A stretch of 41,938 nucleotides of DNA, taken from positions 1-41,938 of IMG/VR virus record IMGVR_UViG_3300042449_002081. One strand, 5' to 3'. The position numbers and the translations under genes were made by a program. Positions 2,558 through 41,938 of this stretch are shown here, piece after piece. Under the pieces are notes generated by a model. It saw nothing but the letters and a program-made list of their open reading frames with translations. It was not told where the DNA came from and ran no database searches. Source of the stretch: a virus. Position 1 is the stretch's first letter. Each line of letters opens with the position of its first letter.

Positions 2558-2562
2558 TTTTA

Positions 2563-4077
2563 ATGCAATACCCTGAGAAAGAGAGCGCCGTCGTCGGCTA
2601 TATTAGTGTCGCTGGCTTCGCCGGCGTGCCGAGGTCGGCGATTGTGGACCCCGATAGTTTTGTCTCGGTGCTGAATGGCGTTTACTACGCCGCGGCGCAC
2701 CGGCTGCACTATGCCAAGAAGGCCACGACGGGCACGACGATCATCGAGGCGATCGAGCGGGATCCGTTTTTGCTGAAGGTGGCGGAGCGGACGGCGCAGG
2801 AGTCGGGCATGGTGTGTTGGCGGGATGGCTTGGTCATGGCAGACAGCTCGCTGGCTTACAACCCGGCGGGTGGCGCGGTCGTGTCGGAATACCTGGCGGA
2901 CATTGCCTCGGCGGCGGCGCAGCGCAAGGCGACTAAGATCGGTCAGAGGTTGGCCTCGGGGGATATGCCTGTGGCGGAGGCTCTGGAGGAGCTCAAGACG
3001 CTGGCGAAGCCTCGGGCGTCGATGGTGGGCGTGGAGATGCATACTTTTGAGGAGCTGTGGAGTTACAAGGCCGAAGACGACTCCAGCACGCTGGTGGGGA
3101 ACCGCTGGCTGTGCCGTGGCGGGCAGCTGCTGCTGCTGGGGCAGAGCGGGATTGGCAAATCCTCCTACACTCTCCAACAGGCGATGACCTGGGCGCTGGG
3201 GATGCCGTTTTTTGGGATGAAGCCGAAGCGGCGGCTGCGGTGCCTGATCGTGCAGGCGGAGAATGATATGGGGGATATGGCTGAGGTGGTGCAGGGAGTC
3301 ATGTCCTATGTGGTGGCGCAGTCGAAGATGACGCAACGCGAGGCGGTGGATATCCTGCGGGAGAATGTGATCGTGGCGCGGGTGACGGCTCAGACGGGTG
3401 AGGCGTTCATCGAGGTGATTCGGGAGTTGATTGCGAAGCACGGGCCGTTCGATCTGGTGTATGGGGATCCGTTGCTGTCGTTCATCGGGGACGATATCTC
3501 GCAACAGGCGGTGGCCTCGCACTTTCTGCGGGAGCTGTGCAACCCGCTGGCGTTCGAGCATGGGTTTGCATGGGTGTGGTCGCACCATACCGGCAAGCCC
3601 CAATCGGACAGCAAGAGCCGGGCGCATTGGAATGCGAATGATTATGCTTACATCGGGCTGGGATCGAGTGAGCTAACGAACTGGGCTCGGGCGATCTGTG
3701 TGCTCCAGACCACGAAACACGAAGGAATCTTTAAGGTGCTGCTGGCGAAGCGGGGCAATCGGGCGGATGCGCTGGATGAGCATGGGCATCCGACGACGGA
3801 TATCGTCATCAAGCACGCGGCGAAGGGTCTGCATTGGGAGCCCGCGGAGCTGCCCGAGGAGACGGAGGAGCAGACGCAACACAAGGGCAAGGCGGGACGC
3901 ACACCCAAAATCTCGGCCTACGACGAGACGGACATCGTCGGGAAGCACGCTCAATGGCCTAAGGGTGCTCGGGGTTTTTATACCGAGATGACTGCCAAGT
4001 ATGGCGTCAGCCGGGACACCATCGAGAGGATCTTGCGCCGGTCCAAACAGGGCGCACAAAACCTCAAGGCGGCGTGA
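2563..4077 (+). CDS. RepA/DnaB-like replicative helicase (AAA_25 type) with C-terminal HTH
   Basis: A 504-residue protein. The ATG at 2563 lies five bases after the resolvase stop; a longer frame open upstream only shadows the resolvase. The N-terminal 150 residues are helical and resemble a DnaB N-domain (KATTGTTIIEAIERD). The RecA-like domain has Walker A GQSGIGKS (193-200), a Walker B-like strand FDLVYGDPLL, and WVWSHHTGKP, the H-motif seen in RepA-type hexameric helicases. A C-terminal segment around YGVSRDTIERIL looks like a helix-turn-helix. It probably unwinds the phage origin as a ring on ssDNA. No separate primase or polymerase is visible, so the phage must use host ones. The repeat-rich segment directly downstream may be its loading site. 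Confidence 0.85.
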   Translation: MQYPEKESAVVGYISVAGFAGVPRSAIVDPDSFVSVLNGVYYAAAHRLHYAKKATTGTTIIEAIERDPFLLKVAERTAQESGMVCWRDGLVMADSSLAYNPAGGAVVSEYLADIASAAAQRKATKIGQRLASGDMPVAEALEELKTLAKPRASMVGVEMHTFEELWSYKAEDDSSTLVGNRWLCRGGQLLLLGQSGIGKSSYTLQQAMTWALGMPFFGMKPKRRLRCLIVQAENDMGDMAEVVQGVMSYVVAQSKMTQREAVDILRENVIVARVTAQTGEAFIEVIRELIAKHGPFDLVYGDPLLSFIGDDISQQAVASHFLRELCNPLAFEHGFAWVWSHHTGKPQSDSKSRAHWNANDYAYIGLGSSELTNWARAICVLQTTKHEGIFKVLLAKRGNRADALDEHGHPTTDIVIKHAAKGLHWEPAELPEETEEQTQHKGKAGRTPKISAYDETDIVGKHAQWPKGARGFYTEMTAKYGVSRDTIERILRRSKQGAQNLKAA

Positions 4078-4108
4078 TCTTTTCCTATTACATCCACATG
4101 AAACCAAG

Positions 4109-4285
4109 TGCCGCAAAATTACCGCAGAATGACCGCAGAATGGAAATTATGCGGCACAGGATAACTGCCGCAAAATTACTGCCGCATAATCCCCCCTTAA
4201 AGGGGGGGGATAATTATGCGGTAGTTAATTTTTCGGCGTCGTTATTTCCGTCCTGCTTTTACCGCAAAATAGGTTTGTGCGGCAT
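4109..4285 (+). repeat. Nine-copy TGCCGCA-type repeat cluster (candidate origin or operator array)
   Basis: A short motif, T(G/A)CCGCA(A/T/G)AAT(T), occurs at 4109-4121, 4121-4130, 4132-4141, 4166-4178, 4180-4190 and 4261-4271 on the plus strand, and inverted at 4145-4156, 4212-4223 and 4276-4285. The segment is AT-rich and lies between the helicase stop (4077) and the next gene (4295). Clusters of short repeats next to a replication gene are typical of iteron origins; repressor operators are the alternative. The last copy covers a GTG at 4277, which is why I start the next gene at ATG 4295. Confidence 0.75.
4180..4223. other. Large palindrome inside the repeat cluster
   Basis: Two inverted repeat units (TGCCGCATAAT at 4180-4190 and AATTATGCGGTA at 4212-4223) flank a run of six C (4191-4196), TTAAA (4197-4201) and a run of eight G (4202-4209). 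The strand can fold into a hairpin with about 17 paired bases and a five-base TTAAA loop, or extrude as a cruciform. There is no U-tract after it, so a simple intrinsic terminator is less likely than an origin structure, although it would also block helicase-operon transcripts. Confidence 0.7.
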
Positions 4286-4294
4286 TTCAACTTT

Positions 4295-4549
4295 ATGAAC
4301 CACCCCAAAAAACCCATCGACCCATACATCGGGTGCCAAGCCTGCGGGAAGGAATGGCAGGACCACCCAGGCATCTCACACACCTGCCAAATGGCCTCAG
4401 ACCTCGCCGACTATCTCCGCTGGGCCCTCAACCACATCGAGCCGCCCGAATACACCAGGGACATTACCGAGCAGGAAGTCTACTTCCACTCCCTCGAAGA
4501 AGCACGCCGCCTCGTCGTCGAGGCCAGCAACTGGAAAGCCCGCTTATGA
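4295..4549 (+). CDS. Small protein with zinc-binding-like Cys/His cluster
   Basis: An 84-residue protein from ATG 4295. The N-terminal part has C-x2-C (GCQACGKEW) followed by HPGISHTC, so four Cys/His ligands for a small metal-binding knuckle could be formed. The rest is helical and acidic. An in-frame GTG at 4277 falls inside the repeat array and is rejected. Its stop overlaps the start of the next HTH gene (ATGA, 4546-4549). I do not recognise the family; a regulatory or packaging accessory role is only suggested by position. Confidence 0.65.
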   Translation: MNHPKKPIDPYIGCQACGKEWQDHPGISHTCQMASDLADYLRWALNHIEPPEYTRDITEQEVYFHSLEEARRLVVEASNWKARL

Positions 4550-5334
4550 AACCCAAACGCCCAGCCAAACCCGAGACAAAGCACAGCATCGCCACCAAGC
4601 TGGCCGCTGATTTCCATGTCAGCGTCCAGACCGCCACCCAGTGGTTCGATGCCGGTTGTCCGATGGATTACGAGGAGGCCAAGGAATGGAAACTCCAGAA
4701 ACGCGCAGAAGCCCCGATCAAGTCCGAGATGGGGTCAAGACCTAATAAGCTGGAGAAAGCCCTAGAACAGGCCGCAGCGTGCGAAGAAACGGTCAACTGG
4801 GATGCGATGTCGACGCAGTTCCGCCAGATGTGCGACATCGTCGCCGACTTCTACCTCATGGGCATGACGGTCTCCGCCATTAACACTAAGCTGGGCGTCA
4901 AGCCTGCGGTCATCTCTCGCATCATTGCTAACCACCCCGATACCAAAGACAAGGAATCCCAAGTCGCCGCTTCAAGCTGGAAAGATGTCCGACGCCTGGC
5001 AGTCGATGCCCTCCGAGACAAGCTCAACGACCCAACCCAAGTCTCCAAGATGAAAGCCGCCGAGCTCAACTTTGTAGCCGGCACCGCTCAAGACAAGATC
5101 CGCGACAGCGAAGGTGGCGCGCAGCTCACCATCAACATCAACCAGAAGATCAATGCGTTGTCGTTTGAGGAACTCATCAACAGCATTCCGAAGAAGGCCG
5201 ATGACATTGATGGTGAGTATGAGATCGAGACCCCCTCGGGAACCAGTAGCGAGGTGGAGAAGCCCTCGGCAAACACCCCGCTCAGTCTCAATAACAAGGC
5301 TAAAAACGAGGAGGATAATGGCTCGAATGAGTAA
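4546..5334 (+). CDS. terS: Probable small terminase subunit (HTH DNA-binding protein)
   Basis: A 262-residue protein. Residues around 15-37 (ATKLAADFHVSVQTATQWFD) read as a helix-turn-helix like that of Nu1-type small terminases, and a second HTH-like segment is GMTVSAINTKLGVKPAVISR. The middle is helical, and the C-terminus is acidic and low in complexity (NNKAKNEEDNGSNE). Small terminases recognise the packaging site and load the large subunit; the large terminase follows at 6247 in the same run of overlapping genes. No homology search was possible, so a transcriptional regulator remains possible. Confidence 0.55.
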   Translation: MKPKRPAKPETKHSIATKLAADFHVSVQTATQWFDAGCPMDYEEAKEWKLQKRAEAPIKSEMGSRPNKLEKALEQAAACEETVNWDAMSTQFRQMCDIVADFYLMGMTVSAINTKLGVKPAVISRIIANHPDTKDKESQVAASSWKDVRRLAVDALRDKLNDPTQVSKMKAAELNFVAGTAQDKIRDSEGGAQLTININQKINALSFEELINSIPKKADDIDGEYEIETPSGTSSEVEKPSANTPLSLNNKAKNEEDNGSNE

Positions 5335-36370: not shown

Positions 36371-36404
36371 AACGCCCCGAGCCAAAAGCCGGGGCGTTTT
36401 TTAT
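36371..36404. terminator. Intrinsic terminator between late operon and integrase
   Basis: AACGCCCCG (36371-36379) pairs with CGGGGCGTT across a short loop (GCCAAAAGC region), followed by TTTTTTAT. A classic rho-independent terminator for the rightward late operon. It overlaps the integrase stop codon at 36401-36403 on the minus strand, so it separates two converging transcripts. Confidence 0.85.
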
Positions 36405-37405
36405 AACCCCCAAAACCTCTCCGCCTCCGCTTGCCGGACTGCCCGAGCATAGGTTTTGTTCACCATCTGCGGCGACGAGTGCCCAAGGAAAAACGCCGTC
36501 TTCCCCGCATCCTGCCACATTGCCAAGTGCATTGAGGCCGCTGTGTGTCTCAAACAATTTTGCGGCCATTCCTCCCACTTCATTTTCTCTGCCAGCGCCG
36601 TCCGCCCGCGCTTGATGAAATCCTCCTCCAAGCAGTCCCAATCCGCCGGCAGATGCCGCCGCAGGGCAGGCAGAATCGGCACATAGCGCTTCCGAGGCAC
36701 CGGATCCGTGGACTTGATCTGCGGCACCAAAATCTCCGCCTCCTCCACATGCTCCGGCTTCGCCCGCCACACCTCGCTCGTCCGCATCCCCCCAAAAACT
36801 CCCAGCACCAACCACGCCCGCAGCCGGTCATTCTGCGCCGTCAAGTCCAGCAGCCGATTCACATTTTTCACCGAGAGCAAATGGTGCTCGGTCGTCCGCG
36901 CAGGCACATCAATCTTCAGCACCGGATTCCGCTCCGCCAAATCGTAACGCACCGCCCAGTTCCAAACCAGCCGCAGGTAATCGAAGCCCTGCTTCGCCGT
37001 CGTGCCGGTCCACTCTGGGCGGGAAAGGAACCGGTCGATGTGCCCCGGCTTGATATCGCACAGATCCATCGGCCCATACTCCGCCACAAATTTTCCCCAC
37101 CACCAAAGCAAAAGCCGCTTGTGATTTCCCTCCTTCAGCTTCGGCATGCGAACCAGATTAAACTCCCGCCAAACCTGCGCCACGGTCATCCCCGCCGCCT
37201 GCTCAAAAGCCTCCGTCCCTCGCGCCTGTAGCTTCGTCAAAAGAGCATCCCGGTGCAGCGACGCCTCCAAGCGAGTCTGAAAAAAAGTCCGTTTCTCAAT
37301 GCCATTGATTCGTGAAAAAACCACATGCTTGGCCTCCCCCCGCACCGTGGCCTCCCGAAGAGTGATCAAGGGCGTGTTGCGTCCTGTTGCGTCCGTTGCG
37401 TCCAT
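36401..37405 (-). CDS. int: Tyrosine-recombinase integrase
   Basis: A 334-residue phage integrase on the minus strand. The C-terminal catalytic domain holds Arg208 (GGMRTSE), the beta-hairpin Lys region RKRYVPIL, box II NCLRHTAAS with Arg286 (Asn replaces the usual His two residues before Leu-Arg), His309 (FLGHSS) and the nucleophile Tyr319 (KTYARAV). The core-binding domain is around residues 60-160. The first codons (MDATDATGRN) are written by the three GTTGCGTC repeats on the other strand, so arm sites and the coding start overlap; a later start is possible. It recombines attP, directly upstream, with a host tRNA-Thr gene. Confidence 0.9.
   Translation of the reverse strand: MDATDATGRNTPLITLREATVRGEAKHVVFSRINGIEKRTFFQTRLEASLHRDALLTKLQARGTEAFEQAAGMTVAQVWREFNLVRMPKLKEGNHKRLLLWWWGKFVAEYGPMDLCDIKPGHIDRFLSRPEWTGTTAKQGFDYLRLVWNWAVRYDLAERNPVLKIDVPARTTEHHLLSVKNVNRLLDLTAQNDRLRAWLVLGVFGGMRTSEVWRAKPEHVEEAEILVPQIKSTDPVPRKRYVPILPALRRHLPADWDCLEEDFIKRGRTALAEKMKWEEWPQNCLRHTAASMHLAMWQDAGKTAFFLGHSSPQMVNKTYARAVRQAEAERFWGL
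37376..37402. promoter_or_regulatory. GTTGCGTC repeats, left arm of attP
   Basis: Three direct copies of GTTGCGTC at 37376-37383, 37386-37393 and 37395-37402, spaced 9 and 10 bases from start to start, at the beginning of the integrase gene. Two more copies in the same orientation lie on the other side of the core. This matches arm-type integrase binding sites in number, length and placement. Confidence 0.6.
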
Positions 37406-39880: not shown

Positions 39881-40810
39881 ATGAAACTGAACATAGTAAC
39901 AGGAAAACTACAGCGGGCCCAGCGGGTCTGCTTTTATGGGGTGGAATCCGTGGGCAAAACCACGCTGGCCGCCAAGATGCCACAGCCGGTCTTTCTCGAT
40001 GTGGAGAAGGGGACGGCGCACCTGGATGTGCCTCGCCAGGAGATCGGGTCTTGGGCGGAGCTGCTGGAAGTGGTGCGGGAGCTGGCCTCGGGGAGCTATG
40101 GCTACAAGACCGTCGTCTTAGACTCCATCGATTGGGCGGAGCGCCTGTGTATCGAGGACTTGAAGGCGGAGAAGAAGATCAAGTCGCTCGAGGAGATTCC
40201 GTATGGCAAGGGCTTTACGATGGCCTCGGAGCGGATGGCTCGTTTTCTTAACGATCTGGACCGGCTCATCGATGCGGGGATCCATGTGGTGCTGATCGGT
40301 CACGCTCAGGTGAAGCGGGTGGAGCCGCCAGATCAGGTGCAAGCCTATGATCGCTATGAGCTCAAGCTCATCAAGCAGACGGGGCCGCTGGTGAAGGAGT
40401 GGGTGGATCACCTTTTCTTTCTTAATTTCAAGACTCGCATTGTCGAGAGCGAGTCGGGCAAGGCCAAGGGCCGCGGGGGCAAGGAGCGGGTGCTCTTTAC
40501 AACGCATGCGGCGGCTTACGATGCGAAGACTCGCTCGGAGCTGGCGGATGAGTTGCCTCTGGAGTTTGCGAGCATTTCCTCCCTTTTCGGGGGGGTGAAG
40601 GCTCCGGTGGTGGCTGCGGCGCAGGCTTATGCGGCGGCGGAACCATTGGAGACCTTTCTTGAGCCGCATGCGGAGGTCGTGAATGCCTGGTTGCTCGCTA
40701 AGGGCAAAATCTCGGAGGGCCAGACTTGGCGGGACATGCCGCCGGCGCTTCGGGACCAAGTCTCGGCGAGGCCGGAGGATTTCCTCAAGGCGGTAACGAA
40801 GGCGGCATAG
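39881..40810 (+). CDS. Sak4-like RecA-fold annealing ATPase
   Basis: A 309-residue protein of the AAA_24/Sak4 family (RecA/Rad51 core without N-terminal domain). Walker A GVESVGKTTL (about residues 20-29), Walker B TVVLDSIDW, and later VVLIGHAQVKRVEPPD with the polar loop expected for the RecA fold. It drives single-strand annealing with SSB, using ends made by the nuclease. ATG 39881 is used; a longer frame from 39836 would overlap the previous gene. It is the complete version of the partial gene at 1-112. Confidence 0.8.
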   Translation: MKLNIVTGKLQRAQRVCFYGVESVGKTTLAAKMPQPVFLDVEKGTAHLDVPRQEIGSWAELLEVVRELASGSYGYKTVVLDSIDWAERLCIEDLKAEKKIKSLEEIPYGKGFTMASERMARFLNDLDRLIDAGIHVVLIGHAQVKRVEPPDQVQAYDRYELKLIKQTGPLVKEWVDHLFFLNFKTRIVESESGKAKGRGGKERVLFTTHAAAYDAKTRSELADELPLEFASISSLFGGVKAPVVAAAQAYAAAEPLETFLEPHAEVVNAWLLAKGKISEGQTWRDMPPALRDQVSARPEDFLKAVTKAA

Positions 40811-40812
40811 CT

Positions 40813-41073
40813 ATGACACTCGAGAGGGCATGCAGGGAGGTTTTGGGGGAGGCGGGTGGGTTGTTCCACCTCAAAACCTCCCCCGAGGGTGGGATCGAAC
40901 GAAGGCTGCGGTTTGAGACCTACTCGCCAAGCGACATCCGAGCGCTGCCTCCCTACCTCTCGCCGCGGATCTGCGATGAGATCAACGCCGCCTGCGACCA
41001 GTGGCTGGCTGCCCGAGGAAAATTGACAGGAAGAGAATACGCAAAATTTATCAATAACAATCATCATGAATAA
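40813..41073 (+). CDS. Small conserved phage protein of the recombination operon, copy 2
   Basis: An 86-residue protein, MTLERACREVLGEAGGLFHL and onward, ending FINNNHHE. Same length as the copy at 113-373, but with an ATG where that has GTG and two extra bases after the ATPase stop. Blocks AGGLF, KTSPEG, DIRALPPYLS and CDEINAACD are shared. It overlaps the nuclease by eight bases. Family unknown. Confidence 0.75.
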   Translation: MTLERACREVLGEAGGLFHLKTSPEGGIERRLRFETYSPSDIRALPPYLSPRICDEINAACDQWLAARGKLTGREYAKFINNNHHE

Positions 41074-41938
41074 TATACGACACAGCATGCTGCCGAAACT
41101 GGCGGCTTGCCCGAAATACACACCGAAGCCGGGGCCAGCGGGTCCGGCTGCAGAGCGGGGGATAAGAGGAGATGTTGCTTTTCGTTTGGGGTTGCAGGGC
41201 GACCGCTCCAAAATCGATGCGCTGCCGGCGGAAGAACGCCCAGGTATCGAGTGGGCGGTCGCCCTTATGGAGGACTACAAGCGGACGGGGACCATCGAAA
41301 CTCGGGAGGAGTATCTGGCGATGCATACGCCTGGCATCGCCCATGTCGGCACGGCCGATGCGCTCTGTGAGAAGCTCGGCTGGGTGGCAGATTTAAAAAC
41401 AGGGCAGTTACGCGGGTATGCCGAGCAGCTCGCGGCCTATTGTTACGCCATGATGCACATGAGTTTCGAGGAGGAATATACGGCCCATGTTCTGTATTGC
41501 GACCACCAAGTCGTGAAGAGCTACCGATTCACCTTGGAGCAGGCGAAGGGGATTGTGGAGCGCATCATTGCGGAGGTGAATGACCCCGCAGCGGAGCCTC
41601 GGGCGTGTGACTACTGCGGATGGTGTGCGAATTACGATTCGTGCCCTGCCGTTGTGAAGCCTGTCGAGGAGGGCTTGGCCGTGATCGCCTCGGAGTCCCC
41701 TACCCTGTCTTCGATGCTGGAGCGGGTGATGGAGTCGCCGGAAAAGCTCGGGCAATTTGTGGCGCAATGGAAGGCCGTGGAAAAAGCCATCGCCGAACCG
41801 GCTCTGGAGGCGCTCAAGGCGATGCTCGAGGACGGCCGCGAGGTGGATGGCTGGAAGCTCACCGAGGTGAAGGGGCGCGAATACTTTGATGTCGAGGGGA
41901 TTCTGTGGGTGGCGCGGGAGACGAATGCGCCGGTGGAA
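41066..41938 (+). CDS. PD-(D/E)XK Fe-S exonuclease, copy 2 (3' end cut by window)
   Basis: The first 291 residues of a nuclease nearly identical to the one at 366-1397. Catalytic parts are intact: HVGTAD, ADLKTG and QLAAYCY, and the cysteines Cys15 and CGWCANYDSC. Between residues 24 and 37 it differs clearly (PAGPAAERGIRGDVAF against DAGPAAQRGTVMDEAF). Elsewhere changes are single conservative residues, such as TF to SF and SE to CD before the Cys motif. No frame break is seen. It runs off the window end. Confidence 0.85.
   Translation, partial: MNNIRHSMLPKLAACPKYTPKPGPAGPAAERGIRGDVAFRLGLQGDRSKIDALPAEERPGIEWAVALMEDYKRTGTIETREEYLAMHTPGIAHVGTADALCEKLGWVADLKTGQLRGYAEQLAAYCYAMMHMSFEEEYTAHVLYCDHQVVKSYRFTLEQAKGIVERIIAEVNDPAAEPRACDYCGWCANYDSCPAVVKPVEEGLAVIASESPTLSSMLERVMESPEKLGQFVAQWKAVEKAIAEPALEALKAMLEDGREVDGWKLTEVKGREYFDVEGILWVARETNAPVE

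Follow-up and report, generated by a model that had tools for sequence, protein, structure and literature searches.

A putative replication origin directly behind a phage helicase gene, with a repeated word that varies with the helicase's C-terminal tail

In this study, we analysed a 41,938-nucleotide stretch of viral DNA (hereafter the window), which is the whole of IMG/VR virus record IMGVR_UViG_3300042449_002081 (positions 1-41,938). Comparisons with its relatives indicate that an array of short repeats at 4109-4284, directly behind the helicase gene, is probably a replication origin, and that the phage's replicative helicase would be its own origin-binding protein, loading at that site; we put the probability of this reading at roughly 0.8. 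An origin had been proposed in a preliminary description of this DNA and is still the best reading, since the repeats travel and change with the C-terminal helix-turn-helix (HTH) tail of the helicase and are absent when the helicase is DnaB. Origin activity of the array is what we infer from those two observations together with the conserved geometry of the array, the concerted change of its repeated word and the exchange of tail and array as a cassette.

The array and the helicase tail in the window

The window encodes an integrase, a Sak4-like ssDNA annealing protein, an exonuclease, an SSB, a Holliday junction resolvase and a terminase large subunit, and therefore it is probably a temperate tailed phage. 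Its two ends, 1-1238 and 40698-41938, repeat each other in diverged form (88.8% identity across 1241 columns), so the record over-runs a circle of ~40.7 kb, probably through the joining of two strains or populations. Exact 127-bp end repeats were seen in several relatives. No tRNA was found in the window, and none of the proteins scanned could be recognised as a primase; tblastn against named phages and plasmids gave no helicase homologue, and blastn against phages gave no match to the 4109-4284 segment. A scan of bacterial and archaeal genomes yielded four distant relatives, two of them in records named Verrucomicrobia or Puniceicoccaceae, and a match with an E value of 1e-60 or better was found in 13 of 387 genomes from the phylum of the Puniceicoccaceae genome. 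The phage appears to belong to a group with relatives in Verrucomicrobiota, these distant relatives being the guide to the host of the window. The features on which the analysis turns are as follows.

2560-4077, plus strand: helicase gene, 505 aa as read from 2560, the start probably being the ATG at 2563
3886-4074, plus strand: C-terminal tail of the helicase, a GRxPxLS arm and a predicted three-helix HTH (AlphaFold2 pLDDT 82)
Codons at 4012, 4024 and 4036, plus strand: recognition-helix switch positions R485, E489 and R493
4109-4119, plus strand: site 1, TGCCGCAAAAT
4120-4130, plus strand: site 2, TACCGCAGAAT
4131-4141, plus strand: site 3, GACCGCAGAAT
4146-4156, minus strand: site 4, TGCCGCATAAT
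4166-4176, plus strand: site 5, TGCCGCAAAAT
4180-4190, plus strand: site 6, TGCCGCATAAT
4191-4209, no strand: central palindrome, C6-TTAAA-G8
4213-4223, minus strand: site 7, TACCGCATAAT
4228-4238, minus strand: site 10, degenerate, CGCCGAAAAAT, between the palindrome and sites 8 and 9
4260-4270, plus strand: site 8, TACCGCAAAAT
4274-4284, minus strand: site 9, weak, TGCCGCACAAA, with no fixed difference between array classes A and B
4161-4245, no strand: imperfect hairpin in the DNA fold, sites 5 and 6 paired with sites 7 and 10
36401-37405, minus strand: integrase gene

The segment 4078-4294 is flanked by the helicase gene, which ends at 4077, and by an 84-aa open reading frame (orf84) that is followed by a protein we call terS from its position before the terminase large subunit gene (terL). 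GC is 0.44 for 4078-4294 versus 0.59 for the window. The preliminary description had the coordinates and layout of the array right. It had counted nine copies of TGCCGCA: nine [TG][AG]CCGCA words are indeed present, but only five are exact TGCCGCA (4109+, 4150-, 4166+, 4180+ and 4278-), the others being TACCGCA (4120+, 4217- and 4260+) and a single GACCGCA (4131+). Across the window exact TGCCGCA is not over-represented (16 copies versus 10.6 expected, a count as high in 9 of 100 shuffles). The clustering of the words is far beyond chance, with nine [GT][AG]CCGCA per 180 bp against a maximum of four in 200 dinucleotide shuffles, and a longer unit, [GT][AG]CCGCANAAT, occurs eight times in the array and once in the rest of the window. 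The reported 44-base palindrome has a genuine C6-TTAAA-G8 core but is imperfect, and it forms the centre of a hairpin of ~85 nt. Folded as ssDNA, that hairpin reached -28.3 kcal/mol (z -7.5), and none of 200 shuffles was as strong.

The helicase consists of a DnaB-like N-terminal part, an AAA_25 motor and the C-terminal HTH tail. AAA_25 (1.2e-15) was the sole Pfam family above cutoff for the window protein, and the DnaB-like family phrog_19 matched it at 0.003. Foldseek ranked DnaB first for the helicase model (mean pLDDT 72) with an E value of 1.8e-12 and a TM of at most 0.41 among the matches listed. Pfam also found AAA_25 in the helicases of the relatives, one of which (L213) additionally reached the cutoff for the DnaB N-terminal family. 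Because of the AAA_25 assignment, the first rank of DnaB and the match in L213, the protein is likely a DnaB-like helicase with an added HTH. Among PDB sequences there was no match to the helicase profile, and the tail profile gave E values of 0.06 or higher. Matches to the HTH of the tail were weak, being below threshold in Pfam and at E values of 0.3 or higher in Foldseek. The best structural neighbours of the tail are homeodomain-like and include Tn3 resolvase (5cy2, Z 5.8, 22% identity) and Tc3 transposase (1u78, Z 5.8); such middling Z values show a common fold and nothing more.

Array words and helicase tails among the relatives

Viral contigs were scanned with the window helicase, a class C helicase, a class D helicase, a helicase alignment and the terS protein, and bacterial and archaeal genomes were scanned as well. 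With repeated contigs removed and loci whose helicase is cut at a contig end excluded (L012, L041, L068, L234, L240 and L241), there were 97 loci, the window included, with the helicase stop codon inside the contig. A tail and an array lie behind the helicase in 76 of them, with 59 different cores and 41 different tails. Classes were assigned by eye from the array (A, 26 loci; B, 19; C, 9; D, 2; E, 1; F, 17; G, 2), and the other 21 loci (L052-L067, L069 and L200-L203) fall outside classes A-G; among these, L202 and L203 carry arrays built from further words and stood outside the class tests.

The repeated word is TGCCGCA in class A, CTCCGCA in class B and TGTCCA in class C, with other words in classes D-G; the words share an A-rich 3' half and vary in the 5' half. 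In classes A and B the layout is +++-++[pal]--+-, with offsets of about -82, -71, -60, -45, -25 and -11 on one side of the palindrome and +20, +37, +68 and +83 on the other. Between classes A, B and C the word differs but the order of the sites does not, nor, almost to the base, does their spacing, the exception being L043, whose array is longer. Four class C representatives have the left six sites at near-equal distances together with sites 7, 8 and 9, and the tenth was recognised in one of the four. Fewer pattern sites were recognised in classes D, E, F and G, and the array of L236 is longer. A second group of sites, in both orientations, was observed 200-270 bp before the palindrome of the standard array in L043-L045 and L236/L239. 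The C-run/AT/G-run palindrome is present in 74 of the 76 tail-bearing relatives; in L037 and L038 it reads CCACCC...GGGTGG, a paired change with both arms altered together, and in L051 it reads CCCTCCCC-TAAA-GGGGAGGG.

In the window and the contigs of 11 array-bearing relatives, the long form of the class word is concentrated at the array, less clearly so for class C, which was searched with a 6-mer. Enrichment in class F (L220, L223 and L233), with two-letter words allowed, and in L051 was matched by at most 4 of 200 shuffles; under a 6-mer rule demanding at least three letters the class F word escaped notice (counts as high in 200 of 200 shuffles for each of the three loci), and L051 gave 49 of 200. 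Among the bacterial-genome loci, 9 of 19 (L282-L286, L289, L295, L296 and L298) had post hoc repeat enrichment within the final 260 bases of the helicase gene or up to 500 bases after it, the 6-mer count being reached by at most 1 of 200 shuffles with up to three stretches tried for each locus.

The position of the repeats relative to the reading frame varies. The array is partly coding in L040. In L284, L296 and L298, from Verrucomicrobiota genomes, repeats and a C/G palindrome lie inside the helicase frame, in its last 260 bases, and the end of the protein is therefore translated array. A different repeat, CGAACA, occurs in seven copies 3' of the helicase gene in L289 (0 of 200 shuffles) with the palindrome GGCGAACATGTTCGCC. 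In the tail-less loci L052-L067 the helicase gene is followed by a small ORF of ~115 codons and then by short repeats (e.g. GGATGA) and a palindrome, an arrangement that looks like a helicase and a binding protein encoded apart; repeat enrichment was clear in L058 alone of the six tested. An N-terminal primase had been guessed for these tail-less relatives; Pfam gave it no support in the two tested, L053 and L060.

Comparison of classes A and B revealed that the repeated word varies with the HTH tail of the helicase and with no other protein tested. Nine of 69 tail columns separate the two classes without exception, as against none of 453 columns of the helicase core and none in exo, ssb, x75, ruvC, orf84, terS or terL (41 A/B rows, L208-L211 left out; columns with at least 80% occupancy in both classes; neighbour genes present in part of the rows, e.g. 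13 for ssb and 18 for ruvC). The separating residues include position 485, where R in class A is H or G in class B, position 489 (E to K) and position 493 (R to D or N); these are spaced i, i+4 and i+8 and would lie on one face of the predicted recognition helix. On the DNA side, fixed differences between A and B fall in 16 of the 20 columns formed by the two bases before CCGCA, in 1 of 45 other site columns and in 5 of the 135 remaining columns (P 1.9e-15; 26 distinct arrays, L043-L045 left out). The tree of helicase cores requires at least 15 changes of class, the least possible number being 6. In independent pairs joined by well-supported branches, taken from 45 A/B rows including L208-L211, the recognition-helix residue goes with the array in five of five, p 0.0625, the lowest value obtainable from five pairs. 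That the helicase tail binds the array downstream of its own gene is strongly supported, yet inferred, from this covariation.

Exchange of tail and array, and alternative readings

In five A/B pairs, DNA identity was 88-94% for the cores, 52-67% for the tails and 57-71% for the arrays, and terS, which the contigs of four of these pairs include, was 92-94% identical. The arrays of same-class pairs (n=3) were at least 99% identical in two and 88% in the third. L040 has a core 85% identical to that of the class A helicase of L024, yet carries a class C tail and array like those of L213, whose helicase is 57% identical to that of the window. Tail and array thus appear from these comparisons to be one exchangeable specificity cassette, with similar cores carrying different cassettes. 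Phages that keep orf84 and terS but have another helicase have no array at the junction, and repeat enrichment was found in none of the seven array-less junctions tested. The replacing gene is DnaB by Pfam in the two cases tested (L130 and L147), reads as DnaB by eye in L140, L141, L144-L146, L149 and L150, and is an unrelated gene in L148.

GC skew, which the preliminary description had suggested as a check on the origin, gave the locus no support, as the turning points of the relatives are off the array and an array-less DnaB-type relative shows the same switch. The window's own change of sign near 4.1 kb was dropped as origin evidence for both reasons. Window skew also changes sign at about 37.2 kb, and several relatives share this turning point close to the integrase. 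Raw cumulative maxima and minima were set aside, being dominated by the overall trend.

The alternative that survives best, though we consider it improbable at around one chance in ten, is that the helicase tail acts on the array to control transcription, by autoregulation or as a switch to the late genes orf84-terS, instead of starting replication. Operator arrays are bound by many HTH proteins, and this array sits between early and late genes. However, a sigma-70-type consensus scan found no promoter-like match in 3900-4700, the array is kept in front of a different next gene in L043, L208, L236 and L051 and is lost in front of the same next genes when the helicase is DnaB, and ten sites around a hairpin are more than the usual operator has. 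The repressor array, which the preliminary description had named as the main alternative, lost ground for the lack of such a promoter and because the covarying DNA-binding domain is that of the helicase itself.

It is considerably less probable that linkage alone accounts for the association, with neutral block recombination changing tail and array in the absence of any contact between them. Tail and array are physically adjacent and are exchanged together, and linkage therefore adds to the correlation. Adjacency alone is insufficient, however, because orf84, which borders the other side of the array, shows no association; moreover, almost all sites change mainly at one shared pair of positions, and the other site columns and the spacers stay as they are.

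Two further readings are the least probable of all. It is common for terminase small subunits to bind iterated sites close to the gene that encodes them, and with terS 260 bp further on and terL near, the array could be a packaging (pac/cos) site, but no column of terS or terL separates the classes, DnaB-type phages without the array have the same terS family, and L043, L208 and L236 have arrays without an adjoining terS. An RNA or terminator element, in which the hairpin works in the transcript, would fit the strength of the hairpin and the compensated central stem of L037/L038 and L051, but no terminator was called at the palindrome, no Rfam family matched and the direct repeats, for which pairing is not required, also change in concert.

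Proposed mechanism, known systems and significance

If the array is the origin, the C-terminal arm and the homeodomain/resolvase-like HTH of the helicase would bind each of the ten sites, the recognition helix reading the variable 5' half of the word (TGCCG in class A) and the arm probably occupying the minor groove along the A-rich half that the words share. Direct sites 1-3, at 11-bp spacing, and the inverted sites around the palindrome could then bring helicase subunits together as rings, one to either side of it. Opening of the AT-rich strands and extrusion of the palindrome hairpin would expose single strand, onto which the helicase may load with neither a separate initiator nor a loader.

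Several known systems resemble parts of this arrangement. The lambdoid O protein is a separate initiator whose iterons lie within its own gene, and host DnaB is delivered by a loader, P; origin specificity of O and its iterons changes between related phages. The relatives of the window are like lambda O in that the specificity of initiator and iterons would differ between related phages, but the window array lies between genes and not within the gene of a separate initiator.

Binding of a helicase to iterons that follow its own gene is already known. The SaPI Rep helicases are described as recognising iterons directly 3' of their own gene, the helicase being the initiator with self-loading proposed, and the SCCmec helicase Cch2 binds direct repeats that closely follow its gene, its isolated C-terminal domain binding the putative origin (PMC7581432). 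Here, too, the iterons lie directly 3' of the helicase gene, and the helicase has a C-terminal domain for binding dsDNA, in this case a predicted three-helix HTH. Unlike those helicases, which belong to the DUF927 (Cch/SaPIbov1) and Primase_Cterm/D5 (Cch2/SaPI5) families, the window protein has an AAA_25/DnaB-like motor, and it differs further in its homeodomain-like HTH, the fixed ten-site layout and the central C/G palindrome.

Plasmid pRN1 has an essential stem-loop downstream of its replication gene, whose protein ends in a DNA-binding winged helix (PMC4234260). The large stem-loop just 3' of the replication gene is a likeness between the window and origins of the pRN1/BIP-1 kind; in contrast, that source gives them an SF3 helicase and an archaeo-eukaryal primase, not matched here, and says that the pRN1 origin lacks iterons. 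RSF1010 (RepA/RepC/RepB') is similar in that a helicase acts at iterons plus stem-loops, but its iterons are bound by a separate protein, RepC (PMC4234260), whereas the predicted binding domain here is fused to the helicase. In a comparison with RSF1010-type RepA, the window motor is AAA_25 in Pfam, but the top Foldseek matches listed are DnaB. Judged by titles and abstract openings, searches of the openly licensed literature listed no paper on this helicase family, nor any on AAA_25/DnaB-like helicases that carry a tail of this kind.

We see an even chance that the broader proposal holds, namely that a DnaB-like helicase captured an origin-binding HTH and, because of this, needs no initiator or loader, and that a swappable tail/origin cassette, with many word pairs on one fixed scaffold, prevents the cross-firing of origins of co-infecting phages. 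These phages provide a natural series of at least seven matched pairs of helicase tail and putative origin word, several of them on a near-constant scaffold, with swaps between similar cores. The series makes directly testable whether a DnaB-like motor loads itself, by what code a small HTH recognises DNA and how origin specificity evolves, and it offers a simple way of finding candidate origins across a large body of uncultured phages.
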